Of a stretch of 64,000 nt of DNA, positions 25,788-60,969 are shown in pieces; the first letter of the stretch is position 1; each line of letters begins with the position of its first letter. A model generated the notes under the pieces. That model was not told where the DNA came from. It saw nothing but the letters and a program-made list of their open reading frames with translations, and searched no databases. A program made the position numbers and the translations under genes. Source of the DNA: a virus; the IMG/VR virus record IMGVR_UViG_3300027985_000891, positions 1 to 64,000 of that record; one strand, 5' to 3'.

Positions 25788-28700
25788 CTAGGTAGGTTCC
25801 TGAATATAGGTAATATTCGATTTTACATATAATTGAAACTTGGCATGATCTGCCTTATTAAGCATATACCTATGGATCATATACCTTTGAGAATATATCC
25901 TACCCTCCTGGGTTTGTTTGTCCAGTATACCAGCATTAACATCTTCCAGGTTTACGAACGGAGAACATGCACAAGGTTTCGTAGTAACCGCAAAATCCTG
26001 GTCAACCACGAAGTCGTATAGTTCATTGATACGCCATTGCTTTTGATCGTATACAGCATCAATTCCGACTTTGTGATCTCTGGCTTGCTCGAGTAAATTG
26101 TTCTCTCGATCTGGGTTATCTGTCCTTGGGAGAAGTGGATGCATTCCGGAAGACTGTGTTCCATTCCAAACTCCGAGATGTGTAAAGGTGTTATGTCGCT
26201 CGTGTAAGTAATCATTTTGTCTAGCAATTTTAGCTTCAGTATCAAGCATAGTTGATTGATATCTCCATGACTCTGCATTGTCCTGATGAGCCACAAAGTC
26301 TATAATAAATGGTTGATAAGATCCATAGTAAGTCTGGAAAGAATCTACACGGGTATCATGTATCCATATCTTACCGGTACCTGGTTCGACAGAGTACATA
26401 TTATTTCGATCCCAGATATACATCATAGGTAGATAACTATGAAAACTGATCCAGGCTTTTCTTCTTGGATCATAAGAGGCTGTCCAAGAGGAACATACAT
26501 CGCCATCTTGTTTGGTAAATAACAAACGATCGTGGCGATGATCATATCCCAAAGAGTAATAAACTCCTCTTACTTTTTCATCCCTACAAGTTTCGGGACT
26601 ACAAAATCTCATGCTGCGCTTGAAGAAGTTCTTGACTCCATAGTCAGAGATTCGTTCAACCTGTCCACCTGACATTCGATATAGACAAGAGCCATCGGCA
26701 TCTGGCCAATAGTAGCCAGTGTTAGTACAGATAGCAGCATTTCGATCTTGCAGCCCTGCGAAACCTTCCTGGCTGAACTCCATAATCAGCTCAGGATCCG
26801 TGAGTAGATCTCCTTTACCTACGACTAGATTACCAGCAGTAGATGGTAGCAATGCAGTTGAATATTTAATCAACCATACACCGTCTGTACAATGCGCATA
26901 AAATCTACCACTCTCTACAAACAGCTTCCTTAAATATCCAGCATGTGCCGGTATGAACCGGAAGTTATTTGACTTAAAGTTTCGATAAGCATCTATCTGT
27001 GAAGTAAGTACTTGCTTCTCTGAGTAGTATACTTCTTGAGTAGTCTCATTCTCAAAGCAATCATCGCACTTACATGTATTATAGTTTCTAGGAATACCGT
27101 AGAATGACTGTACGTCGTTTCGTTTGCTAAAATCAAACTGGTACCCATGAAAGTTGTCTTCAAACTGTACTACTTGTGGACACCGGTCACAACGCTCATC
27201 TTCTCCACCTTCTTCATCTCGACGACATCGTGGTATATGTAGAATTCTATCTACCCATCGATCGTTGAAGGTTGTGTGTAGCATGTAGTTCCATACAGCT
27301 GCAAGTAGTGGAAAGATAACAAAGGTTAAGATGGAATCCGGTATAGACTCCAGTTCTATAGCCTGTGCCGCGGCAAATGCCGGTGCAATCAAACCGAGTC
27401 CTGTACGAATTAAGGACTTCAGCATCAATGTAGACACAGAGGGTTGTTCTACTCTACAGTAGAATCTATTCAACCAACAGTCCTCCCATGGTCTATCTTC
27501 TGAGTCAGATGAATCTAACCAAAGATCTTTAAGCTTAGGATAGAATACTTTACCTTCTTCTTTTTGAGGTCCTGCACCCGTTTGACGAAAGTATGGATTT
27601 ACTTCAAACTCTCCCCAATAGGTTACCAGTGTCTTCTGCACTTTAGGATAATAGTAATCACTGTCTGGTGCTGATTTATTTGCAGCACATTCACAAGAAT
27701 CTGTTACTCCGGTTGTATGTAGACCAGCCCAGTTCTTAGGATCCTGAGCATCTCCTGATTCAGGTATCCTCGTCGGCCAGTGTTCAAGTCCCAGATATTG
27801 AAAGTTCATATCCCATGGATGATCACAGATATCACGTTCCCTTTTCCAGGGAGCGTCTCTACCATCACAGGATCCATTAGCTACAGGAAATTTGTCTCCT
27901 ACCTTATTAGATACATATCCTGTACGTTTGATGGAGTAAGGACCAATAAATACATCTCCGGCTATTCCGGAAATAGATACAGTACTGCCTGGTCCGGCCA
28001 TACCATGGACAGCCGTAGCATTTATACCGGTATCGATGTATCTCATATTCTCCACTGTACCATACTGGTCAGGGATTTCTCTGAAGACTGCACCATACCA
28101 GGCAGCTGCTGTTTTAATAGGACATTCATGATCCAGGACATCTCCTACAAAGGAAGCATCAGACTCTGCCCCACGCTTACCATTGGATAATCCTGGTAAA
28201 CCACCGCCAAGCTGCATATATACAGAGCTCTCACGGTTTCGATTCATTAGCGGTAGAGAGATAGAAGGACCGGATACTACACTGTCTGCCGGAGCATAGC
28301 TCATACCGGTTATCTCTACATCTCCGGACTTCGGTAACTGGCCCGGTAGTGAAACACTTTGTCTGGCACCACGTTGATCTACCCGGGTATCACTAAACCA
28401 ATTATCAGTTTTACCCTTGGCATATAAACCATGACGCCATCCGGATCCATACAGCTCAAGATAGTTTTTAAACCGGTCACCCATTAAAGGGAGCTTTTGA
28501 GCATTTGTATCCAGTGAGTGAAAATTGTAACAATTAGGTGAAGAGTTAGATCCAATCTTGGACTCTCCATTCTCTATATAGCGGTCAACACATTCAAATG
28601 AATTGACTCCGTGCTTGGGGAATGCATGCTCTCGACCTTTAATGATACCGGTAAAGCAAGCAGTAACCATGCCCTTGGCTATGATTGATCGATCATTAAG

Positions 28701-34467: not shown

Positions 34468-34477
34468 AGTTTATTAT

Positions 34478-34618
34478 TTAATCACAGCACCCTTCCCGCT
34501 CTTTCTCCTTTTGAGCTTCACGTTCCAGGTATCGATCGTGCGCTTTGAGCATTAAAATTAAACATAAAGCCACAATAACTCCCATAGTTATTATACCTAC
34601 TACAATGTTACCTTCCAT
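34478..34618 (-). CDS. 46-aa single-span membrane peptide
   Basis: A short gene found in the gap after the last sugar gene. ATG at 34618-34616 overlaps the upstream stop (TAATG), and TAA is at 34478-34480. The peptide starts MEGNIVVGIITMG, has one hydrophobic span of about 20 residues (5-24), then a charged tail rich in Lys/Glu/Arg ending GCCD. Stop-start overlap, the clean membrane segment and filling of an otherwise unexplained gap support a real gene. It could be a lysis accessory (spanin- or regulator-like) or a membrane anchor; function unknown. Confidence 0.65.
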   Translation of the reverse strand: MEGNIVVGIITMGVIVALCLILMLKAHDRYLEREAQKEKEREGCCD

Positions 34619-36228
34619 TAGTATTCTTTTCTTTTCTCATAATCATAGGTTTCAATGCGATGATGTGCTACTGGAGAGGCCAATAGTATACCTGCTTTAA
34701 TCTCATTCTTCTTAGTACGCTCATATACATAAGCCATTACCAGATTCTCTGCTGGCCATAAATACTCTCTGTCACTAAAGATCTTTTTGCTTCCCTGTTT
34801 ACTAATCAGATGGGGCCAATTACAGAAAAAGATCTCTCCTATAGCATAGGCTACTTGATTATAATTATTGATATAGTCTATCTTGGTAGTGGTAGGTCCT
34901 TTACGTTCACCGAAGAACTCTTTACGCTTATCATTATTAACATTGTACCAAGCTACCTGGGTACTATTATTATGAAAGTGTTCACTGAAGCTTAGCTTAA
35001 GAAAATCGAGTTCTTCTTTTTTCATAATACGTAAACACGAGCGTAGCAGGTCAGGTACATTTCTGGTAAATCCTGACCTGCACACTCCTTGCTCTTCAGT
35101 AAGTGTCATATCATCTTCAAAGAATAACATATACTCATGAGCACTGTCATGAAAATGTTTGGCGGCAAACTCGCGTCCACCAGTGATTCCTATGTTATCT
35201 TGCTTGAGATGTGTGAAACCATACTTGTCACATAACTCTATATATAGTGGTTGTGTATCAGTCTCTGTAGAATTATCAATCAGGTATTTCTCAGTAAGTG
35301 TTAGTAGTTTTTTATCATACTTCTCCAGACTTTGTATAAGATACTCAAACTGTTTTGGCGTATTGAACGATATCACATAGAGTGCAATCTGTTTTCCAGT
35401 TTGATTTCCTTTGATTACTTCATCAAAGAAAGGTCCTATCCATCCATCTTGCAACTTATGAATACCCATAAGTTCAGGATATCGATGGGCTATAATTGTG
35501 AAGATCGATTCTTCAGTACCCATGTATCCTTGGTCAAGTGTCTCAGCTAACAAACCATAATAGATCCCATTGACTTCTTCAATTACATCTCCACTACCAC
35601 CAAAGAATCCTCCTCGTACTACATAATCTACAAAGTCTACTTCACAAAATTTATTCATCCCTTCCCGGGTAAACCCATGGATCTCCGTATTGGAATGATA
35701 AGGGTAGGACAACCATATGCTGTCGTAATTACAGATATAGTCATCCCATCCATTTGTAAGGGTTTGAAGTCCAACAGTATTTGTTATGCCGGCATCCAAC
35801 CAATAAAAGTGTGTAGAATCAAAAGGATTCCATATCCTTGCATTGTTGAGTAGAAATATTTTACTCATCACTACCGGATTATACCACTCAAGAGATGCTT
35901 GAGGTGAAGCTTGTAGCCACCCTCCTTCTCCGGTCTGTTCATACCAAGTCTGGGTAGTCCGGATAGTCTGGACTTTTTCCCAATGTGGTTTAAAGATTTG
36001 TTCTTTAATATCCTCCAGTTCAAATATCTTGATAAAAGTATTATGATCTTTTCTTCTATCTCTTACCCATCGTTCAAGCTTAGATGGCACATAGATAAAC
36101 ATGTGCATATCAACTTTAAGCAACTCTTCGAACCGAGCCATATAATGATCTTCAAACTTTCGCTCAAAACCTTGGGTTAGATCTGCACGACCCATATCCC
36201 ATAGACCGGTAACTAACACTGGACTCAT
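34618..36228 (-). CDS. Two-domain glycosyltransferase (HtrL/YibB-like plus GT-A)
   Basis: 536 residues. Overlaps the preceding gene by 4 bases. Residues 1-270 resemble the HtrL/YibB (WlaTC) family of putative sugar transferases; NPFDSTHFYWLDAGI at 134-148, including Asp145, is the recognisable signature. Residues about 278-536 are a second module with a Rossmann-type start (ALYVISFNTPKQF) and an FFEDDM acidic motif at 368-373, typical of GT-A enzymes that hold a nucleotide sugar through a metal. It is the last member of the sugar cassette. Two different transferase modules in one chain suggest two consecutive sugar additions. The sugar and acceptor are unknown. Confidence 0.7.
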   Translation of the reverse strand: MSPVLVTGLWDMGRADLTQGFERKFEDHYMARFEELLKVDMHMFIYVPSKLERWVRDRRKDHNTFIKIFELEDIKEQIFKPHWEKVQTIRTTQTWYEQTGEGGWLQASPQASLEWYNPVVMSKIFLLNNARIWNPFDSTHFYWLDAGITNTVGLQTLTNGWDDYICNYDSIWLSYPYHSNTEIHGFTREGMNKFCEVDFVDYVVRGGFFGGSGDVIEEVNGIYYGLLAETLDQGYMGTEESIFTIIAHRYPELMGIHKLQDGWIGPFFDEVIKGNQTGKQIALYVISFNTPKQFEYLIQSLEKYDKKLLTLTEKYLIDNSTETDTQPLYIELCDKYGFTHLKQDNIGITGGREFAAKHFHDSAHEYMLFFEDDMTLTEEQGVCRSGFTRNVPDLLRSCLRIMKKEELDFLKLSFSEHFHNNSTQVAWYNVNNDKRKEFFGERKGPTTTKIDYINNYNQVAYAIGEIFFCNWPHLISKQGSKKIFSDREYLWPAENLVMAYVYERTKKNEIKAGILLASPVAHHRIETYDYEKRKEY

Positions 36229-37031
36229 GGTATTAATATATTTTCATAGTGATTATAAATATCTGGAAAGTGTTTTTGAAAACTAAATCTTCCATGGCTT
36301 CGATGTGGACTAGTTACGTGCAATGCTGTGATAGGAATATTCATCTGTGCATTGTAAAACTTATCTCCCTCTTTATAGATACCCCAGTCAGGTAAGCAAT
36401 TGTAGGCAGTGCTGCAAATATTTACATCCTCTTTATGAAGATAGTAATACATATTTAATACAAGAGTGTCAGTCCCATAGACATCATACGCTATATCAAA
36501 ATCTATTAACCACTCTTGCAATCGAGCGAACGCACAATAAGCTTTTACAGTACCACCTACAAAGCCTACCTGTAAAACATATCCTAGATCTTTCTTAACA
36601 TCTTCATACATCTCTTTCATTGAATGATGACCCATCTTAAGACAACCGGTTAGAAATCCTTGCCAGGTTGCATCATGTGTACAGGTTAAACCTTTACTGG
36701 TTCCTATCTCGTGCAAGAAGAGTGGAGCTATTTCATCACAGAACCATACGTCAGCATCATAGACAGCTAGTAGTGAATCAGGTTCATCTCTAAAATATTC
36801 AGCTATAGAACTGAATCGATCACATACATTAGACTTAAGTTTGTCAATTGATGGTATGATTTCTATATTGTTATCTTCTAGTATGTTTATTTGTTCTACA
36901 GTTAAACCTAAGTCTACTACATGAATCTTATCGTTCCAAGACCCCAGGGAGCGGAGGGAAGCTATAAATGGAACTAACATAGACTTATAAGCCTTTTCAT
37001 CACATGCCGTTACTATATAAAGATTAGTCAT
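36225..37031 (-). CDS. GT-A fold glycosyltransferase, GT8-like
   Basis: 268 residues, ATG at 37031 directly after the dehydrogenase stop. The N-terminus (NLYIVTACDEKAYKSML) and the DAD motif at 92-94 in AVYDADVWF fit a GT-A nucleotide-sugar transferase of the GT8 type, using Asp residues to bind manganese. Likely cytoplasmic, with no membrane span. Part of the six-gene sugar cassette. Donor and acceptor cannot be read from sequence. Confidence 0.68.
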   Translation of the reverse strand: MTNLYIVTACDEKAYKSMLVPFIASLRSLGSWNDKIHVVDLGLTVEQINILEDNNIEIIPSIDKLKSNVCDRFSSIAEYFRDEPDSLLAVYDADVWFCDEIAPLFLHEIGTSKGLTCTHDATWQGFLTGCLKMGHHSMKEMYEDVKKDLGYVLQVGFVGGTVKAYCAFARLQEWLIDFDIAYDVYGTDTLVLNMYYYLHKEDVNICSTAYNCLPDWGIYKEGDKFYNAQMNIPITALHVTSPHRSHGRFSFQKHFPDIYNHYENILIP

Positions 37032-38222
37032 TTATCTTGTGTTACCATAATGAATAACTTTTACTCCAGGTATATCCGGACACTTTCTCCAAGGATCAAC
37101 TACAATCGATCCTGGAGCAATTATCGAGTGATCAAAATCATTATCATCTTGTACATTATAAGTTGCATAGCTGGAATGAGCTATCAAATATACTGCTGGA
37201 TTCTCGAGAATATTTTTAGGAGGTTTCTCGAAATATTGGTCATAATAATAAACTTCTCTTCCTAACTTCTCTACATAATATCCTACTAACATACTAGGAG
37301 AACCTTCTGTATAAGGCACTTTAGGTTTGTAGGTCTTACCCAATATAACTATAGGTAACCTATAGGAATGTAGCTTAATGGCCATATTCTTAGCCTGTCC
37401 CTCTCTGGCTTGCATGATACCACTAAATAAATCATAGTTCATATCCAGTTTATTAGCAAGCCAGCTAAGAGCTATGTTGTCTCGAGGATGACATGGTCCT
37501 CCATCACCCATACCAGCGATCATATACTTAGGGCTCATGATTCGCATATTGCTATGAGCCAAGGCATGAGTAACGACATCTACATTCATGTGTCCTAATT
37601 TTTCTGCTACATCCTGAATCATATTAACCAATGTAAGTTTAGCAGTGATGAACGTATTGTAGAAAATCTTAATTGACTCTGCTTCTTCCCAGGTACCTCT
37701 AACTATTCGAGGACTACGAGCTACTGTCTTATAGATTTGCTCTAAGCTATCCATTGCTGCTTCATCTTCTCCTCCCATGATAACCATTTCCGGTTTAATC
37801 ATATCCCAGCGTATGGTACCCATAGCTATAAGGTAAGGATTATAGATAAATCTCATGCCTTCAATATGAGGTAAAAGTACATTGCGAACTGTACCGGGAA
37901 GACAAGTGGATATCAAACAAACAATTTGATCTGACTTGACATAAGGTTTAATCGCTTGAAGTGCTTCAATAACATAGTCATATTTAAAGTTCTTAACTGG
38001 AAGACTTGTTGTAGGATTGGATCCGTCATATTGACTATCGTGTGGAGTCTGCACAGCAATAAAAATAAACCTGGCACCTTCAATAGTTTCCTGGACAGTG
38101 TCACACACCTTTACTTTTTCTGAAGTACGTGTGACAATATCGTAGCCAGTAACTGTATAGTGTTCTGCAAATGTTTCTGCACAAGTAAGCCCTAGTTTAC
38201 CTAGTCCTATAAAACTTATCAT
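37032..38222 (-). CDS. UDP-glucose/GDP-mannose dehydrogenase family protein
   Basis: 396 residues, ATG at 38222 with a 4-base overlap. The N-terminal NAD-binding motif GLGKLG lies at 6-11. FIAVQTPHD and the central GGPCHPRD motif contain the expected catalytic cysteine (Cys244). The C-terminal part has the VILGKTYKP motif of the UDP-binding domain. Enzymes of this family oxidise a nucleotide sugar to a uronic acid with two NAD molecules. Slightly short for the family (usually 400-450), but all key motifs are visible, so it is probably active. It would supply an acidic sugar donor to the neighbouring transferases. Confidence 0.82.
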   Translation of the reverse strand: MISFIGLGKLGLTCAETFAEHYTVTGYDIVTRTSEKVKVCDTVQETIEGARFIFIAVQTPHDSQYDGSNPTTSLPVKNFKYDYVIEALQAIKPYVKSDQIVCLISTCLPGTVRNVLLPHIEGMRFIYNPYLIAMGTIRWDMIKPEMVIMGGEDEAAMDSLEQIYKTVARSPRIVRGTWEEAESIKIFYNTFITAKLTLVNMIQDVAEKLGHMNVDVVTHALAHSNMRIMSPKYMIAGMGDGGPCHPRDNIALSWLANKLDMNYDLFSGIMQAREGQAKNMAIKLHSYRLPIVILGKTYKPKVPYTEGSPSMLVGYYVEKLGREVYYYDQYFEKPPKNILENPAVYLIAHSSYATYNVQDDNDFDHSIIAPGSIVVDPWRKCPDIPGVKVIHYGNTR

Positions 38223-39097
38223 TGTAGTACGATTTGATTGATTTTTAAACCTTTTAGTAAAGAGAGGTATAAAAAGTTTGAGATTCTTCCTTCACCATAA
38301 TAACCCAAAGTATATAGGCTCTTAGAGTTAGACAAAAGAATCATTTCAGTCATAGTGTCTTTTACATTATTCCTTTGTGTCTGCGGATCTGTATCGCGAA
38401 GAGGTATGTTGTTCGAAGGATGTCTAAAATTAAATCCCACAGATTTCTCTGTTACTCCTGTATACGTGATTACCGGATATTTAGACTTGACATATTCTTT
38501 AAGATAGGTAGAGTTACTACATACAAAGAACAACTCTTCTTTATGTTGTTCAAAAAATTGATCAATCCTTGGTTTGAAATGATCAACTTCTTCTGGAGTA
38601 TGCCTATCTTCCACTCGAATATGTGCACCCATATGTCCTAAAGTCCTATAGTGTTTAATAGCTGAAGGTTCTACAACGTCTATTTTGATCCTGGGTAAAG
38701 GATGATTCGCAAAACCGGCACAAGAATATGCTATCTGTTGTTGTTGATTATTGACATGCTCTTGAAGTATAGACTGTAATCTGGGCTCACAAAATATATC
38801 TAACCAGTGAGCACCAATCATATCTCTATTCTCTGTAGTATACACATAACTCTTTCCGCTGGGTTCTGTGTTGTATCGAGAGTTAACCTCTTTAATGGGA
38901 ACTGGAATACTGTTCTTATCAATAATATCAAACACACTCATAGTATCTGGCATATAGTAAGCATTACCATTGGTAGTAATCACTACTTCACTCTCATATC
39001 CCATAGCTCTAAACTCACTACATAGATTAACCGCCCAAGTAGTAGAAGCTATAAGATCCCCCAGCCCATATATGAAATTAACCTGAAGCTCTACCAT
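38219..39097 (-). CDS. GT-B, fucosyltransferase-like protein
   Basis: 292 residues, ATG at 39097 overlapping the preceding gene by 20 bases. The start (FIYGLGDLIASTTWAVNL) looks like a GT-B N-terminal Rossmann turn. GAHIRVEDRH in the middle resembles the HxRxxD motif of alpha-1,6/O-fucosyltransferase-like enzymes. The C-terminal MTEMILLSNSKSLYTLGYYGEG resembles their donor-binding segment. Similarity is by motif only, so the sugar might not be fucose. It sits in the middle of the sugar cassette. Confidence 0.55.
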   Translation of the reverse strand: MVELQVNFIYGLGDLIASTTWAVNLCSEFRAMGYESEVVITTNGNAYYMPDTMSVFDIIDKNSIPVPIKEVNSRYNTEPSGKSYVYTTENRDMIGAHWLDIFCEPRLQSILQEHVNNQQQQIAYSCAGFANHPLPRIKIDVVEPSAIKHYRTLGHMGAHIRVEDRHTPEEVDHFKPRIDQFFEQHKEELFFVCSNSTYLKEYVKSKYPVITYTGVTEKSVGFNFRHPSNNIPLRDTDPQTQRNNVKDTMTEMILLSNSKSLYTLGYYGEGRISNFLYLSLLKGLKINQIVLQ

Positions 39098-39869
39098 GTT
39101 GTATTAAGATCTCTTTACTTCTCATTGCATGTACAATAGCAGGTTGTACATGAATATGTTCATCAGTCATATAGTCTCTAAATACCCATGGCTCATCTGT
39201 TGGGAGTCGACCGGCAAAGTGTCCTGTCCAATCACTTGCCCATAATTCTGGAGCAAGCCTTAGTTGATGCTTGTATACATTGCCCATGAGCATATGACCA
39301 GCATAAGCTAGTGCCGCTTCCTCTGTAAAAGTATGACCTTTAGTCTGAGCATGATTCCAAAACTCATACCCCAGGCGGTGGACGTGAAGTATAGCATCTC
39401 TTTTAACTGTCCATAAACCAGCATTAAGATTGAATACCATCTTAGATCTTACTCCTTTCTCCCACATTAACTGACAGAATTCTGGCAGAGGACATCCCCA
39501 CCAATCTTTTCGATAACCATGATCCTGATTACAATTACTTTCCATAGTAAAATGTATTGGACCATCATGACAATATCTTGTCATATCCCCGGGATGTCTA
39601 ACAAAATAGGAGTCAGCATCTATAAATGTAAAGTATTCATAGAACTGTCGACCTACATCTTTTAAGTAGTCCAGCTTAAACAAATAATGATTGTTGTTCT
39701 GGAAACCATATGGTAATTGGATGGTCTGTGTGTTAGGATCACTAATTTCTCTATCGGCAAATACAACGAAGGGTTCATCTACACCTACTGCTCTTGCTGA
39801 TCTGATCATTGCTTCTGTCATGTCTGTATACGTTCCAAAGCATACAGTCCAGTAGCACATTTTCTTCAT
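39078..39869 (-). CDS. GT-A fold glycosyltransferase
   Basis: 263 residues from the ATG at 39869, which overlaps the upstream stop as ATGA. A GTG at 39887 would add six residues, but the GGGAAGAAG there works better as the ribosome site for the ATG. DAD at 84-86 in FTFIDADSYF is the metal-binding DxD motif, and NLNAGLWTVKRDA about 80 residues later is the usual downstream donor-site segment of GT6/GT8-like transferases. The WAS...WTGHFAGRLP region probably shapes the acceptor site. Second gene of the sugar cassette. Confidence 0.68.
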   Translation of the reverse strand: MKKMCYWTVCFGTYTDMTEAMIRSARAVGVDEPFVVFADREISDPNTQTIQLPYGFQNNNHYLFKLDYLKDVGRQFYEYFTFIDADSYFVRHPGDMTRYCHDGPIHFTMESNCNQDHGYRKDWWGCPLPEFCQLMWEKGVRSKMVFNLNAGLWTVKRDAILHVHRLGYEFWNHAQTKGHTFTEEAALAYAGHMLMGNVYKHQLRLAPELWASDWTGHFAGRLPTDEPWVFRDYMTDEHIHVQPAIVHAMRSKEILIQHGRASG

Positions 39870-40897
39870 GTTAATGCTTCTTCCCACATTCGAACATGAT
39901 CCTCATAGTTGCAGAGTTCTTCACGAGCATGCTCACTGCAACGTTTAGACATGTCAAACCGGTATTCTAGGTTATGAAATAAGATCTTAATTATCTGTTT
40001 CCACTCATAGATATCATCTACAATGAAACCAGTTTGTTTATCCTTGATAAGATTTTCTAAGTTGTGACCAGACTGGACAATTGGAATAGCTCCAGTAAGC
40101 ATTGCTTCTACTGTACTTCTTCCCCAAGACTCTATAAAGTTATGTCCCAGGGGATAAGCAAAGATATCCAATCCGTATAGAAAGTCTTTAACCGGCATTG
40201 CATTTGGCTCAAGAAGCGTCCATCGATACTTTCTTTTCCAATTATGCCAGGCATACTTGCGCTTTAAATCTTCATCCCATGCCATCACTCGAAAAGCTAT
40301 TCTTCTAGGATCTAAACCTTCTACCATTTCTTCATAAAAGACAGGGAAATCTTCTGGATACTTATAACTATCTGCCCGGGATACTCTACCGATACCAATA
40401 GTCTCAGATGATCTTAACCTAAAAGGGAACAAATCAGGATTGATATAATTACCTGTCATCACCCAGGGAATATTAGGAGGATAGGTAAGTCTGGCTCGTT
40501 GTACTTCAGAGACATAAAGAACTTTACTGATATAGCCTTTATTGATGTAATCCATTTCCTGAGTATGGTGCCACATCATTTCAGAAGACCAGATGATTTT
40601 TAGTCCTTTATTGTATGCGTCTTCTACAAACTTGTCTTTAAAAAAGTAAGGGTTACAAAGCGAGAGTGCAATGTCTCCCGGTTGGTAACCCTTCATATCC
40701 TCTTTTAAACCGTAGCTAATCCCTAGCGAGTCCAGATATGCAGTCATCGCATTTGGCGGATCATACATTTCTGGTGCATTCGCTATACACATCACTTGAT
40801 CAAACAATTCTTTGAAGATCGGAAGTGTGTGATACATCTTTGTGTCAGCACCACCCAATTCTCCGGGCATGCCGTATATCCATAGTCGTCTACTCAC
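39866..40897 (-). CDS. GT-B glycosyltransferase, GT4-like
   Basis: 343 residues starting at GTG 40897. The N-terminus (LWIYGMPGELGGADTK) matches the glycine-rich GT-B opening. The C-terminal domain carries the GT4 Ex7E signature with Glu256 and Glu264 in ESWGRSTVEAMLTGA, a retaining transferase donor site. First gene of the sugar cassette. A 13-bp stem-loop ends 8 bases before the start, and its right arm contains AGAAGG, the only good ribosome-binding sequence, so translation could respond to folding of that hairpin. Confidence 0.72.
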   Translation of the reverse strand: MSRRLWIYGMPGELGGADTKMYHTLPIFKELFDQVMCIANAPEMYDPPNAMTAYLDSLGISYGLKEDMKGYQPGDIALSLCNPYFFKDKFVEDAYNKGLKIIWSSEMMWHHTQEMDYINKGYISKVLYVSEVQRARLTYPPNIPWVMTGNYINPDLFPFRLRSSETIGIGRVSRADSYKYPEDFPVFYEEMVEGLDPRRIAFRVMAWDEDLKRKYAWHNWKRKYRWTLLEPNAMPVKDFLYGLDIFAYPLGHNFIESWGRSTVEAMLTGAIPIVQSGHNLENLIKDKQTGFIVDDIYEWKQIIKILFHNLEYRFDMSKRCSEHAREELCNYEDHVRMWEEALT

Positions 40898-40905
40898 ACA
40901 TTAAA

Positions 40906-40939
40906 GATAATCCTTCTATTTTATTTTAGAAGGATTATC
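40906..40939 (-). terminator. Strong stem-loop between the 1,938-aa gene and the sugar cassette
   Basis: GATAATCCTTCTA (40906-40918) and its exact reverse complement (40927-40939) form a 13-bp perfect stem with an 8-base A/T loop. On the transcribed strand only TTT follows, so termination would be weak or partial. The stem also overlaps the AGAAGG that precedes the GTG at 40897. It is either an attenuator separating virion and sugar genes or a translation-control hairpin. Confidence 0.6.
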
Positions 40940-40949
40940 CTTGATGTTT

Positions 40950-43900
40950 TTATGCACATCCGCAACATGCATCGACAAACGCTTGTGTCAGTACAACAGT
41001 ATTAGATTGATCTGTTCTATTCAACGTTCCACAGTTTGCAGTATTGATCTGGAAGGTAGCTATTGCATACCAGTTACTACTTGTATCTACATCACAGTTA
41101 GATGCTGAAAGTATATGTCCTCCTTTTATAGAAAGAATAGCACCTACTTGACTTATAATCAAGTTTCCAGAGTTACCAAACGCAGGAACATTGACACCAT
41201 TTACATAGACATCTACATTCCATGTACCAGATACTCCACTTGTTCCTCCAGTTCCACAGCAGATATTAATAAACTCCTCAAACCTCAAGTCTATTTCATA
41301 ACCTGGAGCACACTCATCTCGACACTGGAATGCCGGTATGGTATAAGTGAATGTTCCAAGTCCATCACTACATGTGTTCGGTTGGCTTGAACTAGCTGGC
41401 GCATTAGAACTTGATGGCGCTCTACTTGAACTAGGTCTGACACTAGAACTTGCTCCTGCCGGTTGTGAACTAGCCGGTGCATTAGAAGAACTTGGTAATC
41501 TGCTTGAACTTGCAGCCGGTGAATTAGATGACGTACCTGCTGGAGATGAAGCTGCAGGCGGATTAGAGCTTGCAGGTGAACATCCACACATTGTAAAGTC
41601 AGCATCGGTTACTGTTCTTGTACGCTCGATGTGTCGATTAGAATAAGTACAGTTGTTAGCTACTAATGTAATATCAGCTATTAAAGTGTACGTTCCAGCA
41701 GGATCAGATCCACAACTTAGTGTCACGAAAGACGGCAAGTTGAAGTTAATATCCGATCCAATCGTTCCAATCGTATTACCACTGGCTACTATTGAGTTAT
41801 CAGGTCTTCTGACACTCCACGCAGCCATTGCACTTGTAACATCACAACATGTGTTGTAAGAAACAATTATATCAGCAAGATTTAATTTCACAGTAGCTCC
41901 AACACATCCTACTGTCATGGTACCACCACTAATTGTAGTTGTTGATGTACAAGGAGGTGGTGCACCTGAACTAGCAGCTTGGACAGAGCTAGAAGGATCT
42001 GCTGCCGGAGCATTACTAGAACTGGCCGGTACACTTGAACTAGCTCCTGAACTAGCTGGTATGTTAGACGAGCTAGGTGTAGGACTACTAGAACTTGGTG
42101 CATTACTAGAACTTGGAGCAATACATGACAAACCAGGATCTGGGTTAACAAATCCGGCATTAAACGTACATCCGTTTGAATCAGTTATCTCTACTTCTGG
42201 CGGATCAAGTGGATCTGCACCATCAATTCTTAGTCCTGATACTGAACCAGTACCACTTAGAATACTTAATGATGATCCAGTTGCTATGCTTCCACATCCA
42301 CCTACAACAATTGAATAAGTACCTGGTCCATCGCATTCGGTTTCAAATGACGGACTACATGGTGTAACCAATGTAATTGCCCAAGTATCTACACAAATAG
42401 ATCCTACATGAACTGTACCACCTGAATCTACCATGGTACCAGCAACTGCACCTGTTACATTAGTTAATGTAACTGTACCAGCTGGAGGTATGGTAAAGTT
42501 CCATTGTACACCTTCATAAGTAATATAATAGTCACCAGGATTTCCTTGGAAAGTAAGATCTACATATTCATTACATCCTAGAATATCATATCCAATCAAT
42601 GTTGGTAAACAACATAATTGTTTTTGATCATCATCCGTACAAGGTAAACATTCTGCAAATACATCATATGTTGCACCTACAATTGTATACCCTAAAGGAA
42701 GATAAGAAGTAAAGTTAGTAGGTGCTCCTACAAACTCATCCCATAATTCTTCACCATCCAGTGACCAGGTAAATTTAACTCGTTTTGCATTTGGATTATC
42801 TGCTACTAAACCTACAGATTGAGTAAACTCTGGAAGAACAGTACCAGCAGGAGAAACTAAGAAATTAACTACAGCATCCTGATAGGTACAATTGTCTTCC
42901 AATCCAAAGTCTCTTATTTCAAACTTCACTGGAATATATGCCGTACCAAGATCAATACTTTCTTGAAGTACTGCAGTAGCAATTTTAGTTTGACCAAAAG
43001 CTAACTGTATAAATACTTTACCAATATAAAGTGCTCCGTCTGTATCTGTGGCCTCAACTCTAATCGGTATAGTACTATTGGCTGCAGCAGCATCTAACTG
43101 GAAGTAAAATCCAGTTGGATTCTCTATTAATTGAGTACCATCAAGTTCATTATATACCTTGACCGTATCAATATTTGATAAACTAATCAGATCAGTAGTA
43201 CCATCTTTTACGTAAACATTTAAGTCTAATAGTATATCCGAAGGTTGACCAGTCAAACTAGCAGTGACATTTACAGTCATTGTGTTTGGTGTAACTGCAA
43301 AATTCTTCATTACAGTCACAGAACCGGTTCCTTCTACAGAACTAGCACCGGTAACAGTTACTTGATTGACAGGTCCTACATCATCTCGTCCAGCCCATAC
43401 ACTTCCAGATGTTACTCCAATATCTTCATAACCCATTAAATGAGCAGTGAATGGAATAGTAACAGTTGTATCATCCATGGTGATTCCGGACACATTGATA
43501 TCGACATGCCACAATCCTTGGTTACATGGACAGATCGAAGGATCAACTTCAGCTTTTAACCTGCAAGCATTGTCTTCGCTATACTCTGTAATAAAGACAC
43601 TCAGATTGCAACCTCCAGCCTGGAAAGTAACATCTTCATCGTTACAAGCCACATCATTGGCTGTTACTTTAATCTGATTATTTTCAACATATCCAGACAG
43701 TGTCCATCGACCTGGGCCATTTTGAGAAAGTGTAAGTGGTCCTCCAGAGGTATGACCTAATGAATCTACAGTATCACCTGTAGTAAGATTCTCTGCAGAA
43801 AGTACATAATCAGTACCACCTACTACAATAATATCTGAAAAAGTAGCAGTAATTTGATTTACTTGAACTCTAAAGCTATCACAGCAGTTCGAAGTAAGTG

Positions 43901-46766
43901 ACGGTAAAACAATATTTACTGGATCACATCCTCCTCTCTGGGCCCTGATTACTAATGCATCCGTATTAGATAGAGTATTAAGTGTAGCGCATACATCTAC
44001 TAGCTGAGTTAAAGTACCGTTAGAATTAACAATACTATATTCAACTCCATCTGCCGGTTGACATATAATATCTCCACCACAGTATCGTTCGATCAATCCT
44101 ACATTAGCACTACAGCAATCTTCCTGTACAGTAACTTCTATTGGAGGACATCCACATTTCCAGTATACCGTTGCAGTATATGTTCCAATAGGTAATTTGA
44201 TAGACAGATTAGTAGATAAAGTAAACCCGTTTATTTCAATATAGTCTACTAGACATCCACCAGTCTTATCCTTGTTAGGGAATGTTACAGTAAATTCGCT
44301 AAGATCCTCATTACATACGGTAGTTGGATCGTCAATTTCTAACTCTCCATCTCCATCCAGCTCATAAGTTTTGACACATTGTTCTTCAGTATCACAACTT
44401 AAACCGTATTTGATTTCTTGAAAAGGAGTAGTAGAACAGAACTTCTGACCAATAGGAGCCGCATCACCAATCCAGGTAATTTTCTGATCACCAAATTCAA
44501 CAAAGAACTCTAGATCTTCATTAGGTGTACAGGTATCAAAACTATCAATAGTGATACAACTGTTGCAGCTATTTGGATCTACTGTGTAATCAAGTTCCTC
44601 CGGATTACAGAATACGATGTATCGATTAGCATCTGTATCGCAAGAGCAATCCACTTTAAGTGAATATTCATGACAAGATTCTAACCATTCATAAGGTGGT
44701 CGAGTAATTACATCTGTATAGATCGGACCACCAGGTATGTAAGATTTTCTTACTGCTGTACCGTCTTTGAACCATCGGAAGAATGGATCTCTACATACAG
44801 AAGAAGTAATTGTTGTACCGATAGGATTAGAGAATCCTGAACCGGTAACAAAATTCAACCACTGATTATTTTGATTGATGTTGTAGTCTCCAATAGTAAC
44901 TCCTCCCTGATATACACACTTGTTCGGGAAGTTCATATTGGAGCTCTGGAAGAAACGTACTCTTACGGAAGTTGCTTCTCGTTGAGTAGTAGCATCTACT
45001 TGCTGGCGTACACCAATCTTAGGTAACTGAGTAGCCGGGAATAATAATGTGGCTGTTGTACCAGAAGATGGGAAAGAAGCAGTCTTCGTTTCTCCCTGGG
45101 TCGTAGATGATCCTTGGAACTCATAACGACCGGTCACTGGATTCAAGACATAGATGCTATATACTATGCTTGCCATCATGGTGATTACACCAGACGTTGG
45201 AGGTTCATTATCTGCAATGTTGTCATTGGCAAAATCATCCAGTAAAGGATTCGTATCCGGACTAAATCCATTATAAGATCCTTTTCTAGCTTCAGCCTTA
45301 AAGATCAGACTGTAGAAGTTAGCATCTTCGCCGGCACGTTGTCCTTTAATATCCAAAGTAAGTGGTGAACAGGAGCAGCAATTCTCCATAACCAGTTCAC
45401 CGGTGATAGAACAGTTATCATCATCTTTGATGATATTCAGACTATCACTACAAGTCTTATCTCCTCCTTCACAATTTCCATTTACACAAACACATCCTTC
45501 ATGTGAAGTACAATTGGATATTGGACTGCATGTAAAGTTTCCACAAGAAACACACTGTCCATTTACACAAGTACATCCTACTGCACAATCGAAAGAAGTA
45601 TCACAATCTCCTACACATCGATCAGGTACACACTTATTATTGAAACATTCACATCCAAGTGCTTTGGTACATTCTGTCGTTAGACAAGAGAGAAGATCGC
45701 ATGGAGTACAAGTTCCATTGTAACATCCACAACCTTCTGGACAATCGACTCCAGTAGTACATGGAATATCTTTACAAGGATTATTAATACATTTTTGAAG
45801 TGATGGTGAACAATAGCATGGATCTTCACATCCAGAGGCACATGTACCTTTACATGGGAAACATGCACAATCTTGAGCTGTTACTGCATCACAATAATCT
45901 GTGACTTTACTACAGTCTCCTTCATCACAATCACATCGCTCAAGACATTTACATTCACCATCTACATTGACAGCTATCTTACCGGCACATTGTTGACGTA
46001 CACATACTCCCAGTTCACATCGAAGACAAGGATCAATAATAGTACAGTCAGCATCTGATGTACAATCTGGTTCTTCGATACATATCCCACCTACACGGAC
46101 AAATCCTGGGCAACATACACAGCTACCACCTTCACAGCATTCATTAGATCCATCACAATCACTGGCTGAACAACATTCTACACAAGCCCCAGGAGAGCCG
46201 AATTGTCCTTCTGAATCGCAACATCCAGGACATGGCTTAGGAATACATGTTCCTTGTTCACATATAGAACAAACATCACAGTCTGAATCATTGGAACAAT
46301 TATCACAACATCCTGTCAAAGGATTTAATACTGTACCGGGAGGACAAACACATCGACCTCCTATACAGACTTGATTACATGGACATGGATTGTCTTCATC
46401 ACAATCACAACAAATGAATGTGCCTTCACTTATCTCACAACACTGTTGACCAGTCTCACAAGTAGATACACATACATTACATTCACAAATTTCACATGGT
46501 CCACAATCAGTCTTACTATCGCAAAGACATACTTCTTTGACTATAGGAGCACAATTGTCACAATCAGCACAACGTATAATGAACGTAAGGCAGACATCTT
46601 TCAAGTCTCCCTCTAACACTTCTACAGTATATATTCCTTTGGCTTCATCTTTACAAGGCAATGCTGCCCCGGTTTTGCCGGCATACTCTACTATAGGACA
46701 AGGACAAAGTATACCGTTGTTGTATACTTTCCCTATGACAATATCGAATGTTCTCGTACTAGCCAT
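40950..46766 (-). CDS. Giant Cys-rich, mucin-like virion/adhesion protein
   Basis: 1,938 residues. ATG at 46766 overlaps the upstream stop by 8 bases. After a beta-like domain (1-70), residues about 70-440 are packed with cysteines in EGF-like CxxGxCxxC patterns (CNQVCIGGRCVCPPG, CTCVNGQCVSC and many more). Residues about 450-1530 are a series of Ig-like beta domains with conserved Cys-Cys pairs. Two Ser/Ala/Pro-rich segments (about 42125-41951 and 41585-41380) separate the last two domains, each domain being about 120 residues. The chain ends CCGCA. It lies between the Cys-repeat protein and the sugar cassette. A long multidomain fibre or surface adhesin, possibly glycosylated on the Ser-rich parts, is the best inference. 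No enzyme motif seen. Confidence 0.72.
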   Translation of the reverse strand: MASTRTFDIVIGKVYNNGILCPCPIVEYAGKTGAALPCKDEAKGIYTVEVLEGDLKDVCLTFIIRCADCDNCAPIVKEVCLCDSKTDCGPCEICECNVCVSTCETGQQCCEISEGTFICCDCDEDNPCPCNQVCIGGRCVCPPGTVLNPLTGCCDNCSNDSDCDVCSICEQGTCIPKPCPGCCDSEGQFGSPGACVECCSASDCDGSNECCEGGSCVCCPGFVRVGGICIEEPDCTSDADCTIIDPCLRCELGVCVRQQCAGKIAVNVDGECKCLERCDCDEGDCSKVTDYCDAVTAQDCACFPCKGTCASGCEDPCYCSPSLQKCINNPCKDIPCTTGVDCPEGCGCYNGTCTPCDLLSCLTTECTKALGCECFNNKCVPDRCVGDCDTSFDCAVGCTCVNGQCVSCGNFTCSPISNCTSHEGCVCVNGNCEGGDKTCSDSLNIIKDDDNCSITGELVMENCCSCSPLTLDIKGQRAGEDANFYSLIFKAEARKGSYNGFSPDTNPLLDDFANDNIADNEPPTSGVITMMASIVYSIYVLNPVTGRYEFQGSSTTQGETKTASFPSSGTTATLLFPATQLPKIGVRQQVDATTQREATSVRVRFFQSSNMNFPNKCVYQGGVTIGDYNINQNNQWLNFVTGSGFSNPIGTTITSSVCRDPFFRWFKDGTAVRKSYIPGGPIYTDVITRPPYEWLESCHEYSLKVDCSCDTDANRYIVFCNPEELDYTVDPNSCNSCITIDSFDTCTPNEDLEFFVEFGDQKITWIGDAAPIGQKFCSTTPFQEIKYGLSCDTEEQCVKTYELDGDGELEIDDPTTVCNEDLSEFTVTFPNKDKTGGCLVDYIEINGFTLSTNLSIKLPIGTYTATVYWKCGCPPIEVTVQEDCCSANVGLIERYCGGDIICQPADGVEYSIVNSNGTLTQLVDVCATLNTLSNTDALVIRAQRGGCDPVNIVLPSLTSNCCDSFRVQVNQITATFSDIIVVGGTDYVLSAENLTTGDTVDSLGHTSGGPLTLSQNGPGRWTLSGYVENNQIKVTANDVACNDEDVTFQAGGCNLSVFITEYSEDNACRLKAEVDPSICPCNQGLWHVDINVSGITMDDTTVTIPFTAHLMGYEDIGVTSGSVWAGRDDVGPVNQVTVTGASSVEGTGSVTVMKNFAVTPNTMTVNVTASLTGQPSDILLDLNVYVKDGTTDLISLSNIDTVKVYNELDGTQLIENPTGFYFQLDAAAANSTIPIRVEATDTDGALYIGKVFIQLAFGQTKIATAVLQESIDLGTAYIPVKFEIRDFGLEDNCTYQDAVVNFLVSPAGTVLPEFTQSVGLVADNPNAKRVKFTWSLDGEELWDEFVGAPTNFTSYLPLGYTIVGATYDVFAECLPCTDDDQKQLCCLPTLIGYDILGCNEYVDLTFQGNPGDYYITYEGVQWNFTIPPAGTVTLTNVTGAVAGTMVDSGGTVHVGSICVDTWAITLVTPCSPSFETECDGPGTYSIVVGGCGSIATGSSLSILSGTGSVSGLRIDGADPLDPPEVEITDSNGCTFNAGFVNPDPGLSCIAPSSSNAPSSSSPTPSSSNIPASSGASSSVPASSSNAPAADPSSSVQAASSGAPPPCTSTTTISGGTMTVGCVGATVKLNLADIIVSYNTCCDVTSAMAAWSVRRPDNSIVASGNTIGTIGSDINFNLPSFVTLSCGSDPAGTYTLIADITLVANNCTYSNRHIERTRTVTDADFTMCGCSPASSNPPAASSPAGTSSNSPAASSSRLPSSSNAPASSQPAGASSSVRPSSSRAPSSSNAPASSSQPNTCSDGLGTFTYTIPAFQCRDECAPGYEIDLRFEEFINICCGTGGTSGVSGTWNVDVYVNGVNVPAFGNSGNLIISQVGAILSIKGGHILSASNCDVDTSSNWYAIATFQINTANCGTLNRTDQSNTVVLTQAFVDACCGCA
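41380..41585 (-). repeat. Ser/Ala/Pro-rich coding repeat, second block of the 1,938-aa protein
   Basis: About 65 residues built from SSS triplets separated by Ala, Pro, Asn or Arg (PSSSNAPASS and similar), encoded by imperfect repeats of agttctag-type words. It has the composition of a mucin-like, extended linker and shares words with the blocks at 41951-42125, 47715-47890 and 60620-60760. Confidence 0.8.
41951..42125 (-). repeat. Ser/Ala/Pro-rich coding repeat, first block of the 1,938-aa protein
   Basis: About 57 residues of the same SSS-xxP type, between an Ig-like domain and a Cys-containing C-terminal domain. Imperfect DNA repeats of ctagaactag are visible on the plus strand. Confidence 0.8.
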
Positions 46767-47712
46767 CGTAGTCTTTGTTCAATTTTTTAATAAAAGCTTC
46801 AGGATCCTTCAGATACTCACTGTCCGAAAGATCGACGCCATATTTTTCAAGAGCCTGGATATTAGGTATATCCTCTGCTTTCAGTGTAAACAATGGATAC
46901 TCAGAAGTCTGCGTTTGTAACAAAACAATTGGTTCCTGCGGATCACAATCATCTATGGATAAGCAGCATCCATTTTCATAAACACAACTGATTATATCCA
47001 TACTCAAATTACATTCCATAAGCCTGGCACAGAAATCAGCTGTTAGTTCACACTTGTGTTTTTGGATATGTAGATCCAATCCTATATCACATTTATGACT
47101 CTTAACCATTATGTCAAAATCAAGATCGCATCTTTCTTTTGCTGTAGCACAAACTTCTACCTGAGTATTACACTTTTCTTCACAAACATGTGCTGCTACT
47201 ACAATATCACAAGGTATTAGCTTGGCACATATGTCTGCAGTAATATCACAGGCAATTGTTGTTTCAATACTTTTTACTTCCAGCTCGAGATCACAAAGAA
47301 TATCATATACTAGATACTCCCAACGTTCTCGAGCTACACAGTAAGGATTTCTGGCAATCCAGGCATCCACATTAGTCTTGTCAACAATTAGATCTGGCCT
47401 ATTTAAATCATCGCAAGATGCTGTCAATTTTTTAACTCGTTCGTATAAAAGCTGTAATTCATCACAACTTAGACAGGGTCTTCCTCCCATCATTCGACAT
47501 TGAAACTCTTGTTCCAAATGATATCGATATCGTTGCAATCTTTCAATTTTCGTTTCTGCTTCTACATCACATGTCCAGTCATGATAAAGCAGATCTTTCA
47601 AAGCTTTTCCGAGCTTAAACTCAGTCACTTTTGACTCGAGTATTAGTTTGTCAATATCCACTGCACTACATGCACAGGGATCAAAACATTCATATCTAAC
47701 GCAACAGTCCAT
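46759..47712 (-). CDS. Protein with tandem 13-residue cysteine repeats
   Basis: 317 residues. ATG at 47712 overlaps the previous stop (TAATG). It opens with MDCCVRYECFDPCAC. Residues about 50-130 are helical. Residues 140-243 form about seven or eight units of 13-15 residues that each begin with Cys and show alternating hydrophobic positions (CDLDFDIMVKSHK, CDIGLDLHIQKHK, CELTADFCARLME), as in small beta-solenoids. The C-terminus is charged. It is sandwiched between two Ser-rich virion-type proteins and translationally coupled to both. I recognise no family; a disulfide- or metal-stabilised rod is an inference. Confidence 0.65.
   Translation of the reverse strand: MDCCVRYECFDPCACSAVDIDKLILESKVTEFKLGKALKDLLYHDWTCDVEAETKIERLQRYRYHLEQEFQCRMMGGRPCLSCDELQLLYERVKKLTASCDDLNRPDLIVDKTNVDAWIARNPYCVARERWEYLVYDILCDLELEVKSIETTIACDITADICAKLIPCDIVVAAHVCEEKCNTQVEVCATAKERCDLDFDIMVKSHKCDIGLDLHIQKHKCELTADFCARLMECNLSMDIISCVYENGCCLSIDDCDPQEPIVLLQTQTSEYPLFTLKAEDIPNIQALEKYGVDLSDSEYLKDPEAFIKKLNKDYDG
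46984..47295 (-). repeat. 13-residue cysteine-led tandem repeats
   Basis: Units start at Cys140, 155, 168, 181, 195, 208, 221 and 234 of the host protein, a spacing of 15, 13, 13, 14, 13, 13 and 13 residues. The pattern is C-[DEN]-h-x-h-x-h-x-x-x-x-x-[KPE], with a second Cys at position 8 in several units. Confidence 0.75.
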
Positions 47713-49424
47713 TATTGACTACTACTTGGTGCTGCTCCACTAGAACTAGGTGCCGGTGTACTAGAGCTAGGCGCTGGTACACTAGAACTAGGTGCCGGTG
47801 CAGAAGAACTGGCCGGTACATTAGAAGAACTAGGTGCCGGTACACTAGAGCTTGCAGGTGCGTTAGATGAACTAGCAGCAACTGAGGAACTAGCAGCTAC
47901 TGTTCCAGATACTGTTGCTGTACCCATTACCTGTACTGTTCCACAAGTAGTACAGATTATATCATAGTCAAATGACCATGCCGCTATGGAAGAAGGTGTA
48001 TACTTCACCTCACCGGTAAGTGGATTGAATGTATCCACTGTGACGTTAACAAGTGATCCACCATCCAGTGCATAACTGGTTGTTCCCTGAGAGCATGGTG
48101 TATCATTGGCACCAATCATAATAGTATTCTGTTCCAATGATACGGAGCCTACTGTATCATCATTTGCTGTAGCAGTAACCGGACCTCCGGAAACTGTGCC
48201 AGTGTCAGTTGGAACACCATCACAGAAGATAGTATATCCAAACGACCAAGCAAGTGACAAATCAGTTACTATCACGTCGTATGCACCAGAAGCATTTACT
48301 GTAGCTGTACAGTTTACTTCAGATGCGGCAGTCAAACCTGCAGTAGTAACTCCTGATGTACACGGTGTATCATTGCTTAATACGTTACCAGTGCATAGAT
48401 TACCGCTTGGATTAGCATATGCTGTTGGTATATTAATTGATACAGTTACTACAGGACTGTTCCAGAATAATCCTGTATCTGGATCAGTACATGTTATATA
48501 GTAATCAAACTGAGCTACACCTACAAACCCCATGGTGGGAAGAACAGTAAATGCTCCCGTGTCCTGGTTCCATTGAGTAACCGTTACTTCTGTTTGATTA
48601 GTTGGCTCTGATAATCCAGAGCTATTTGCATTTATATTCGAAGAAAGTATATACTTGGTAGTTCCACCATTAATACATGGAAAATCGTTTCCGGCTACAT
48701 TGGCAATAAGTTGAGTATTAATACCAGTGGCAAATGAGTCATCAACAGGTTGAGCACATGTTACATTGAACTGTACTGTTGCCCTATCTCGAAGAATTCC
48801 ACCACAATACATGGCATATATTGCTCGATCTACTCCGCAGAAACCCGGATCAGGTGTATATGTTCCAGAGTCTGGAGTTCCAGTAAGTGTACCAAACTTA
48901 GGCATTTCTACCCATTGATAAGTAGCAGCTGTACCGGCAGGGCATGCACCATCATTAGCATTTACCGTAGTAGGATATCCCACTCCTTTAGGTACTACAT
49001 AGATATCATCCAGTGCCAAATTCTCATCACACTTGGTATTGATTGCACAACAACTAAGACCGGAAATGAGAACACAGACAGCATTGTCTGATGTATCTGG
49101 ATCCGGACAAGAGTTTGTAGTACCAACTGTATATAAAAACTTGTACTTGCCAAGACAATCATTGGTTACATAAAATAGAACTTCACCAGTAAGGCTCTCC
49201 CCTGGGGCTAAACTTCCGACACTCCATATATTGGTGACCGGGTCATAAGTACCTCTAGGAAGATTATGTCTTGAGTATATCACACCAGAAGGTACGCTGA
49301 CATCAACGATTACATCTGTTGCAGTATATTGATCCGACTTGTTACGAATATTCTCGAGTGGAACGGAAATCTCCATTCCCTGACATATCAACGGTAACTC
49401 TATCGGTACAAATTTAGTAGCCAT
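47712..49424 (-). CDS. DUF11-type adaptor plus Ig-like repeats and Ser-rich tail
   Basis: 570 residues, ATG at 49424. Residues about 10-145 are the shared Ig-like adaptor (PSGV...RGTYDP...WSVGSLAPGES...SGLSCC). Residues about 150-500 are roughly four bacterial Ig/cadherin-like units with the ANDxxC start and GxxxYxPxxGFxG pattern. The last 60 residues are a mucin-like SSS/Pro/Ala tail ending in SSSQ. One of five proteins in the window using the same adaptor, so likely a tail- or capsid-attached surface protein. The Ser-rich tail is a candidate substrate of the phage sugar cassette. Confidence 0.68.
   Translation of the reverse strand: MATKFVPIELPLICQGMEISVPLENIRNKSDQYTATDVIVDVSVPSGVIYSRHNLPRGTYDPVTNIWSVGSLAPGESLTGEVLFYVTNDCLGKYKFLYTVGTTNSCPDPDTSDNAVCVLISGLSCCAINTKCDENLALDDIYVVPKGVGYPTTVNANDGACPAGTAATYQWVEMPKFGTLTGTPDSGTYTPDPGFCGVDRAIYAMYCGGILRDRATVQFNVTCAQPVDDSFATGINTQLIANVAGNDFPCINGGTTKYILSSNINANSSGLSEPTNQTEVTVTQWNQDTGAFTVLPTMGFVGVAQFDYYITCTDPDTGLFWNSPVVTVSINIPTAYANPSGNLCTGNVLSNDTPCTSGVTTAGLTAASEVNCTATVNASGAYDVIVTDLSLAWSFGYTIFCDGVPTDTGTVSGGPVTATANDDTVGSVSLEQNTIMIGANDTPCSQGTTSYALDGGSLVNVTVDTFNPLTGEVKYTPSSIAAWSFDYDIICTTCGTVQVMGTATVSGTVAASSSVAASSSNAPASSSVPAPSSSNVPASSSAPAPSSSVPAPSSSTPAPSSSGAAPSSSQ
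47715..47890 (-). repeat. Ser/Ala/Pro-rich C-terminal repeat
   Basis: Nine or more near-identical units of about 18 bases coding PAPSSS, VPASSS and similar words. The DNA units (ctagaactaggtgccggt-like on the plus strand) are more alike than needed for the protein, suggesting recent duplication. Confidence 0.85.
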
Positions 49425-60618: not shown

Positions 60619-60969
60619 TTATGCACTAGAACTAGGTGGTGGTCCACTAGAAGATGGTGCTGCTCCACTCGAAGAAGCTGCTCCAGAACTAGATGGAATA
60701 TTACTAGAACTAGCTGGTATATTCGAACTTGATGGTGCATTACTGGAACTGTTTGGAACAACACCTAACAATGCAGCGATCGCATCAAGCGATATTGTAA
60801 CGAGAGCCCCATTATTTCCGGGGCTCGCATACGTTATCGTTCCATTGCAGCAATCAAACTGGCAGCAGTCATCACCTGCAGGAGCATTGATGGATGTAAC
60901 GCCTACACGTTTTCCATTGACAATCTTCCAGGCCGCACCCTGTTCGAGATATATTTTAGTATTACTCAT
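60619..60969 (-). CDS. Small protein with mucin-like Ser-rich tail
   Basis: 116 residues, ATG at 60969. The first 70 residues are a compact domain with CCQFDCCNG in the middle. The last 45 are SSS/Pro/Ala repeats (SSSNAPSSSNIPASSS, ending PPSSSA). The same kind of tail is found on the 570-aa protein and inside the 1,938-aa protein. Directly downstream of the candidate capsid gene, so it could be a capsid decoration protein with an exposed Ser-rich arm. Confidence 0.6.
   Translation of the reverse strand: MSNTKIYLEQGAAWKIVNGKRVGVTSINAPAGDDCCQFDCCNGTITYASPGNNGALVTISLDAIAALLGVVPNSSSNAPSSSNIPASSSNIPSSSGAASSSGAAPSSSGPPPSSSA
60620..60760 (-). repeat. Ser/Ala/Pro-rich C-terminal repeat
   Basis: Imperfect units of 12-18 bases coding SSS separated by Ala, Pro, Gly, Asn or Ile. 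The same actagaactagnnggt-type words occur as in the blocks at 41951-42125 and 47715-47890. Confidence 0.8.

Follow-up and report, generated by a model that had tools for sequence, protein, structure and literature searches.

A sugar-gene cassette in a crAss-like phage and the association of HtrL_YibB/GT-A enzymes with mucin-like tracts: a probable virion glycosylation system

Enzymes that join an HtrL_YibB domain to a GT-A domain and mucin-like protein tracts go together across phages. One such tandem enzyme is encoded in a six-gene cassette of the phage described here, and this cassette is probably a phage-encoded virion O-glycosylation system, in which donor synthesis, transfer to serine and glycan extension would all proceed in the cytoplasm. 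A broader proposal, which we put forward tentatively and with some doubt, assigns tandem enzymes of the HtrL_YibB/GT-A type a dedicated role as protein O-glycosyltransferases, which would initiate or lengthen glycans on the Thr/Ser/Pro tracts of virion proteins. Enzyme and tracts would then have come together more than once, in jumbo phages, in crAss-like phages and in some bacteria. If true, the proposal would give the HtrL_YibB family a function. Phage virion glycosylation is known so far from few systems, and here a family of unknown function is statistically tied to mucin-like tracts in environmental phages as well as in isolates. The findings suggest that many phages coat their particles with sugars by themselves, which would alter their encounters with mucus, antibodies, receptors and other phages. 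Since the pairing is present in cultured isolates, the question can be put to the test immediately on phage stocks that are already available.

The cassette within a late structural block

The window, that is the whole 64-kb stretch of DNA analysed here, covers the initial part of a 124,898-bp IMG/VR record whose source genome is, judging from its predicted proteins, a crAss-like phage. A crAss-like muzzle protein (25788..31475, minus strand; PF25731, E=4e-20) marks both the phage group and the structural block, and MCP, portal and TerL were found shortly past the window end (phrog_11589, 6547 and 6681), so that the muzzle, MCP, portal and TerL of crAss-like type by which Crassvirales are recognised are all present. 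The closest TerL is that of Cellulophaga phage phi14:2, a member of Crassvirales (36% identity). Moreover, the late gene order around the muzzle is common to this phage and Leptolyngbya phage Lbo-JY46, and the equivalent block of phi14:2 consists mostly of proteins detected by virion mass spectrometry, according to the phi14:2 record. The cassette lies inside this late structural block.

The cassette consists of six minus-strand ORFs (34618-40897) that overlap or are separated by very short gaps, as had been proposed in the preliminary description of this DNA, which counted six adjacent sugar genes. None of the six proteins contains a strong membrane segment, which fits cytoplasmic enzymes. 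The central component is a tandem glycosyltransferase of 536 aa (34618..36228, minus strand), in which an HtrL_YibB domain is followed by a GT-A (GT2-like) domain. The match to PF09612 spans the first half of the protein (57 bits, E=3e-15, against a curated cut-off of 24.1), and the AlphaFold model (pLDDT 90.8) has two GT-A-like halves, which bears out the two-domain organisation described earlier. The WxDxG and EDDM motifs are invariant across 55 homologues, the window enzyme among them, in which the conserved acidic motif residues are D145, E371 and D372. Identity with the YibB equivalog was rejected, as TIGR02192 gave 59 bits where 265 are required.

Sequence searches of the PDB gave no useful match. 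With the model as a query, the best solved structures in Foldseek were LH3, the chondroitin polymerase K4CP, LARGE1, POMGNT and COLGALT1, with a polypeptide GalNAc-transferase (PGANT9A) lower in the list. Whole-model TM-scores are low (~0.3) because two domains are set against single ones or against other arrangements, and E-values and probability were used instead. The predicted fold resembles that of protein-glycosylating enzymes.

The second well-assigned member is a UDP-glucose/GDP-mannose dehydrogenase family enzyme (UGDH) of 396 aa (37032..38222, minus strand; phrog_9148, E=9e-89). PF00984 and PF03721 score above cut-off and PF03720 below it; Cys244, noted earlier as intact, is present in the motif GDGGPCHPRDN and invariant among aligned relatives. 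The catalytic cysteine and the family score together identify a UDP-sugar dehydrogenase, which is 54% identical to the enzyme of Synechococcus phage Bellamy. Another member, of 343 aa (39866..40897, minus strand), retains its GT4-like label with a PF00534 score barely above the curated cut-off (27.1 against 26.4, E=4e-6).

For the 292-aa protein at 38219..39097 (minus strand), the earlier fucosyltransferase-like label draws its support from fold and motif: the model (pLDDT 70) matches NodZ, FUT1 and POFUT2 in Foldseek at E ~1e-3, and the H-x-R motif is kept in 8 homologues. Of 114 tandem-enzyme loci, 8 contain a member of this fucosyltransferase-fold family (7 of them in phages and 1 in bacterial DNA), compared with none of 136 control loci, and at two of the 8 (L092 and L132) its gene stands immediately upstream of the tandem enzyme. 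The remaining two proteins are putative glycosyltransferases of 268 aa (36225..37031, minus strand; DAD motif at residue 92) and 269 aa (39078..39887, minus strand; DAD motif at residue 90). As neither has a family match in any library searched, the names "GT8-like" and "GT-A" once given to them remain guesses; at the HtrL-GT family loci the former protein has two relatives, one of them strong and the other weak. In effect, the late block encodes glycosyltransferases of its own, namely the tandem GT-A enzyme, the GT4-like protein and the fucosyltransferase-fold protein.

Candidate acceptors lie on the same strand. The preliminary description placed Ser-rich segments at 41380-41585, 41951-42125, 47715-47890 and 60620-60760, and they were found at 41376-41582, 41943-42128, 47712-47891 and 60619-60753. 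The first two are internal Ser/Pro/Ala tracts of a 1938-aa Cys-rich protein that has no family match (40950..46766, minus strand). The third is the C-terminal Ser/Pro/Ala tail of a DUF11 protein (47712..49424, minus strand; PF01345, E=1e-10), and the fourth is the C-terminal Ser/Pro tail of a 116-aa protein (60619..60969, minus strand). A fifth tract forms the terminal part of a 71-aa minus-strand ORF beyond the window (genome positions 102211-102426, about 102.3 kb). Three tract proteins of this phage end in such C-terminal tails; the C-terminus of the MCP has no Ser/Thr tail. The SSS runs mix AGY and TCN serine codons, which indicates selection at the protein level and no recent slippage, and composition-preserving shuffles of the window proteins gave 0.05 expected tract proteins versus 3 observed. 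The tracts contain no copy of the Bacteroidota sequon D(S/T)(A/I/L/M/T/V). The candidate acceptors may well be virion proteins, as had been assumed before, and that designation holds as a positional argument from the structural block rather than as a proteomic one.

Two features of this arrangement count against the glycosylation reading. The tracts of this phage are Ser-rich and not Thr-rich, and a strong RNA hairpin (40906..40939, minus strand; -23.8 kcal/mol, z=-10.5, no T-run) separates the cassette from the tract gene within a gap of 52 bp, where it is possibly an attenuator or a processing site.

Co-occurrence of the tandem enzyme and mucin-like tracts

Tandem-enzyme relatives were fetched from IMG/VR by similarity to the enzyme alone, blind to tracts, and the best 80 of more than 500 were taken; for the control loci, the dehydrogenase of the cassette itself and the TerL of the phage served as queries. 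Loci were dereplicated at 85% protein identity, and a mucin-like tract was defined as a stretch of 40 residues that includes 18 or more Ser/Thr and 4 or more Pro and lies within about 10 kb. Such a tract was present at 35 of 54 tandem-enzyme loci, drawn from those best 80 of more than 500, versus 4 of 44 UDP-sugar-dehydrogenase loci (p=9e-9). When the tract was required in the longest local ORF, the counts were 35/54 and 3/44, and the same rule gave 0/51 for crAss-like TerL and MCP loci. The counts agreed when the thresholds were tightened or relaxed. The TPTxTPT codon pattern, sought in whole records, distinguishes the groups even more sharply: it occurs in 30 of 31 tandem-enzyme carriers versus 2 of 45 controls (p ~1e-17), with at least 5 copies in 26 of the 31 carriers and one copy each in both positive controls.

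The association also appears from the opposite direction. Among tract-selected records of at least 40 kb, 14 of 41 contain PF09612, compared with 1 of 45 controls (p=9e-5), and that sole control match is a single-domain protein of Bellamy. The absence of PF09612 from the other 27 of these 41 fragments counts against the glycosylation reading. UGDH was also considered as a marker of the system and was dropped because its relatives, although numerous, show no such association with tracts, which is another point against that reading. In IMG/VR, searches with UGDH or the ring protein as a single query returned no match, because such searches match near-identical peptides alone.

In carriers, 11 of 20 regions distant from the enzyme also contain tracts. 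Because they are spread across carrier genomes, local adjacency was dropped as the main argument, and the pairing is best described as a link between genome traits, which a shared phage lineage could explain. The preliminary description had concluded from adjacency that the cassette decorates the tracts. That conclusion now rests on other ground, namely on enzyme relatives that track tracts across unrelated phages and on the glycoproteins reported for phage XacN1 (in the part of PMC5852040 available), and it is stronger than proximity by itself could make it, since members of the enzyme family co-occur with mucin-like tracts across phages. The benefits named with it, that is mucus binding, stability or receptor evasion, are speculation.

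These counts also bear on what else the cassette might do. It is unlikely that the enzymes remodel the LPS, capsule or S-layer glycan of the host for superinfection exclusion, with the Ser tracts being unrelated flexible linkers. HtrL_YibB genes are indeed found in bacterial LOS/LPS loci (PMC4172580), and the UGDH family occurs in surface-sugar-like islands of tract-less cyanophages and a pelagiphage; but it is the tandem two-domain form that tracks mucin-like tracts, and not general sugar genes, the cassette sits inside a late structural block, and a non-exhaustive scan of the proteins recognised no lysogeny gene. That the enzymes glycosylate hypermodified phage DNA is highly improbable. The GT-A half is weakly like phrog_842, a beta-glucosyl-HMC-alpha-glucosyltransferase (E=0.007), and tandem-enzyme relatives are similar to TAGT at E ~0.06, yet no protein of the thymidylate-synthase/hydroxymethylase family (PF00303) was found in the 124.9-kb record, the association is with protein tracts, and UGDH and the fucosyltransferase fold are better suited to protein or surface glycans.

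Under the preferred reading of virion O-glycosylation, the dehydrogenase would supply a UDP-uronic acid or a similar donor, and the tandem HtrL_YibB/GT-A enzyme, with the other transferases, would modify the Ser/Pro/Ala tracts in the cytoplasm, either ahead of assembly or while it is under way. The fucosyltransferase-fold protein and the GT4-like enzyme would then lengthen the glycan chain. The tracts as acceptors, the order of these steps and the identities of the sugars are all presumed here.

Distribution across lineages

A further explanation is that the tracts are sugar-free disordered linkers or tails, and that the pairing stems from one large aquatic phage lineage that happens to contain both. 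The genome-wide occurrence of tracts in carriers is in line with it, as is the fact that carriers are mostly large phage contigs, which may share a lineage. We nevertheless regard it as rather unlikely, since the pairing occurs in at least three backgrounds, namely RaK2-like jumbo phages, Crassvirales and bacterial contigs, and contrasts within each of them speak against a single lineage.

In RaK2-like jumbo phages and their distant kin, enzyme and tracts are both present in XacN1, CM1 and RAS14, which have 51, 22 and 22 TPTxTPT sites, respectively, whereas RaK2, 121Q and GAP32 show neither the tract pattern nor an enzyme match; T4, S-SSM7 and Atu_ph07 likewise have no TPTxTPT site. Within Crassvirales, the present phage combines the tandem enzyme with Ser tracts, while Lbo-JY46, phi14:2 and two long relatives are without PF09612 and have no convincing tract in the parts examined. 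The slot of the 116-aa protein (60619-60969) is filled without a Ser tail in two of the closest kin, by L384 15033-15923, with N-terminal homology, and by L385 7436-7708; neither kin contig extends as far as the cassette position. In bacteria, the tandem enzyme is rare, with 20 loci found by similarity search in about 85,000 species genomes, some of which may be phage DNA, and a tract is nearby in 7 of the 20.

The enzyme tree points the same way, as the distribution of tracts over it implies 10 to 13 changes of the tract label, a figure inflated by loci clipped by contig ends. The window enzyme occupies a long branch of its own, which counts against the glycosylation reading.

An experimental anchor is XacN1, whose ORF330 is a full-length relative of the window tandem enzyme (40% identity). 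In the passages of the XacN1 paper available, the phage is reported to contain at least two glycoproteins, and the authors credit glycosylation to ORF328 and ORF334; no mention of ORF330 or of the tracts was found in those passages (PMC5852040). The Thr/Pro tracts of XacN1 are located in ORF350, 369, 370, 372 and 384. The first four adjoin genes for head completion, the tail sheath and tail completion; ORF370 has a match in a virion structural family. The reported glycoproteins are a further point against the linker explanation.

Likeness to known glycosylation systems

No description of the enzyme-tract pairing was found in the open-access literature. Novelty seems to lie in the enzyme family, in the tracts paired with it and in how widely they occur; phage virion glycosylation itself is already known.

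In Gram-positive bacteria, GtfA/GtfB carry out cytoplasmic O-glycosylation of Ser-rich adhesin tracts, and these transferases are encoded beside the adhesin. The system proposed here would similarly place cytoplasmic transferases beside a Ser-rich target gene, with phage proteins in place of a secreted adhesin. The GtfA/GtfB NCBIfam models matched no cassette protein at E<=0.1.

Mycobacteriophages provide a known case of virion glycosylation (Freeman et al. 2023, as far as summarised in the available part of PMC12619734). There, as here, the phages encode transferases, and the glycans are placed at the C-termini of virion proteins, which recalls the three tract proteins with C-terminal tails. 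The systems differ in that capsid and tail-tube subunits are modified in mycobacteriophages, whereas the MCP of this phage is without a Ser tail, and in that the marker enzyme here is the HtrL_YibB/GT-A tandem. XacN1 is closer, as it combines a full-length enzyme relative, detected glycoproteins and Thr/Pro tracts in structural-region ORFs, and differs in the genes to which, in the available passages, its authors credited the modification (PMC5852040).

Another parallel comes from the chlorovirus PBCV-1, in which the virus-encoded multidomain glycosyltransferase proteins A064R and A111/114R make virion glycans. These glycans are N-linked and attached to one capsid protein, the enzymes have other domains, and the host is a eukaryote (PMC7826918). 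A064R is a capsid-glycan enzyme that consists of two glycosyltransferases and a methyltransferase. About one quarter of the tandem-enzyme relatives have an N-terminal extension, which in those examined is an FkbM or class I methyltransferase, and these methyltransferase-fused forms recall A064R (PMC7826918).

Boundaries of the sugar-gene cassette

The gap that separates the six-gene sugar cassette (34618-40897, minus strand) from the gene of the 1938-residue, tract-bearing protein (40950-46766, minus strand) is occupied by a very stable hairpin at 40906-40939 (-23.8 kcal/mol, z=-10.5), at which no T-run is present. This hairpin may keep expression of the enzymes below that of the structural genes. 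At the end of the tandem HtrL_YibB and GT-A enzyme gene, a minus-strand ORF of 46 residues with one TM segment (MEGNIVVGIITMGVIVALCLILML..., 34477-34617) begins with an ATG that overlaps the stop codon of the enzyme gene.

Tracts and sugar enzymes in other phages

In the lake cyanophage Synechococcus phage DSL-LC02, seven consecutive annotated glycosyltransferase genes are found at 92-99 kb; genes for a methyltransferase (FkbM) and for an HtrL-like protein of one domain accompany them, and the TPTxTPT pattern is absent from that phage. An HtrL_YibB protein is absent from 27 of the 41 large contigs bearing TPTNTPT tracts (L237-L316), where different enzymes might act in the same role, or the contigs might be incomplete. 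In large environmental phages (L161, L163, L168, L171 and others), some proteins carry TPTPTNT repeats hundreds of residues long, and nearly all those tested match phrog_15511, perhaps because of the tract itself.

Muzzle protein and early-region ORFs

Among phage tail proteins, the muzzle protein (25788-31475) seems unusual in having a MAM domain (PF00629, E=1e-9). Within the plus-strand early region, two minus-strand ORFs lie at about 100.6-102.4 kb of the genome (16555-17235 and 18211-18426 of L008, a later stretch of the genome), one encoding a signal-peptide protein, possibly a beta-barrel, and the other a 71-residue protein ending in a Ser/Pro tail.
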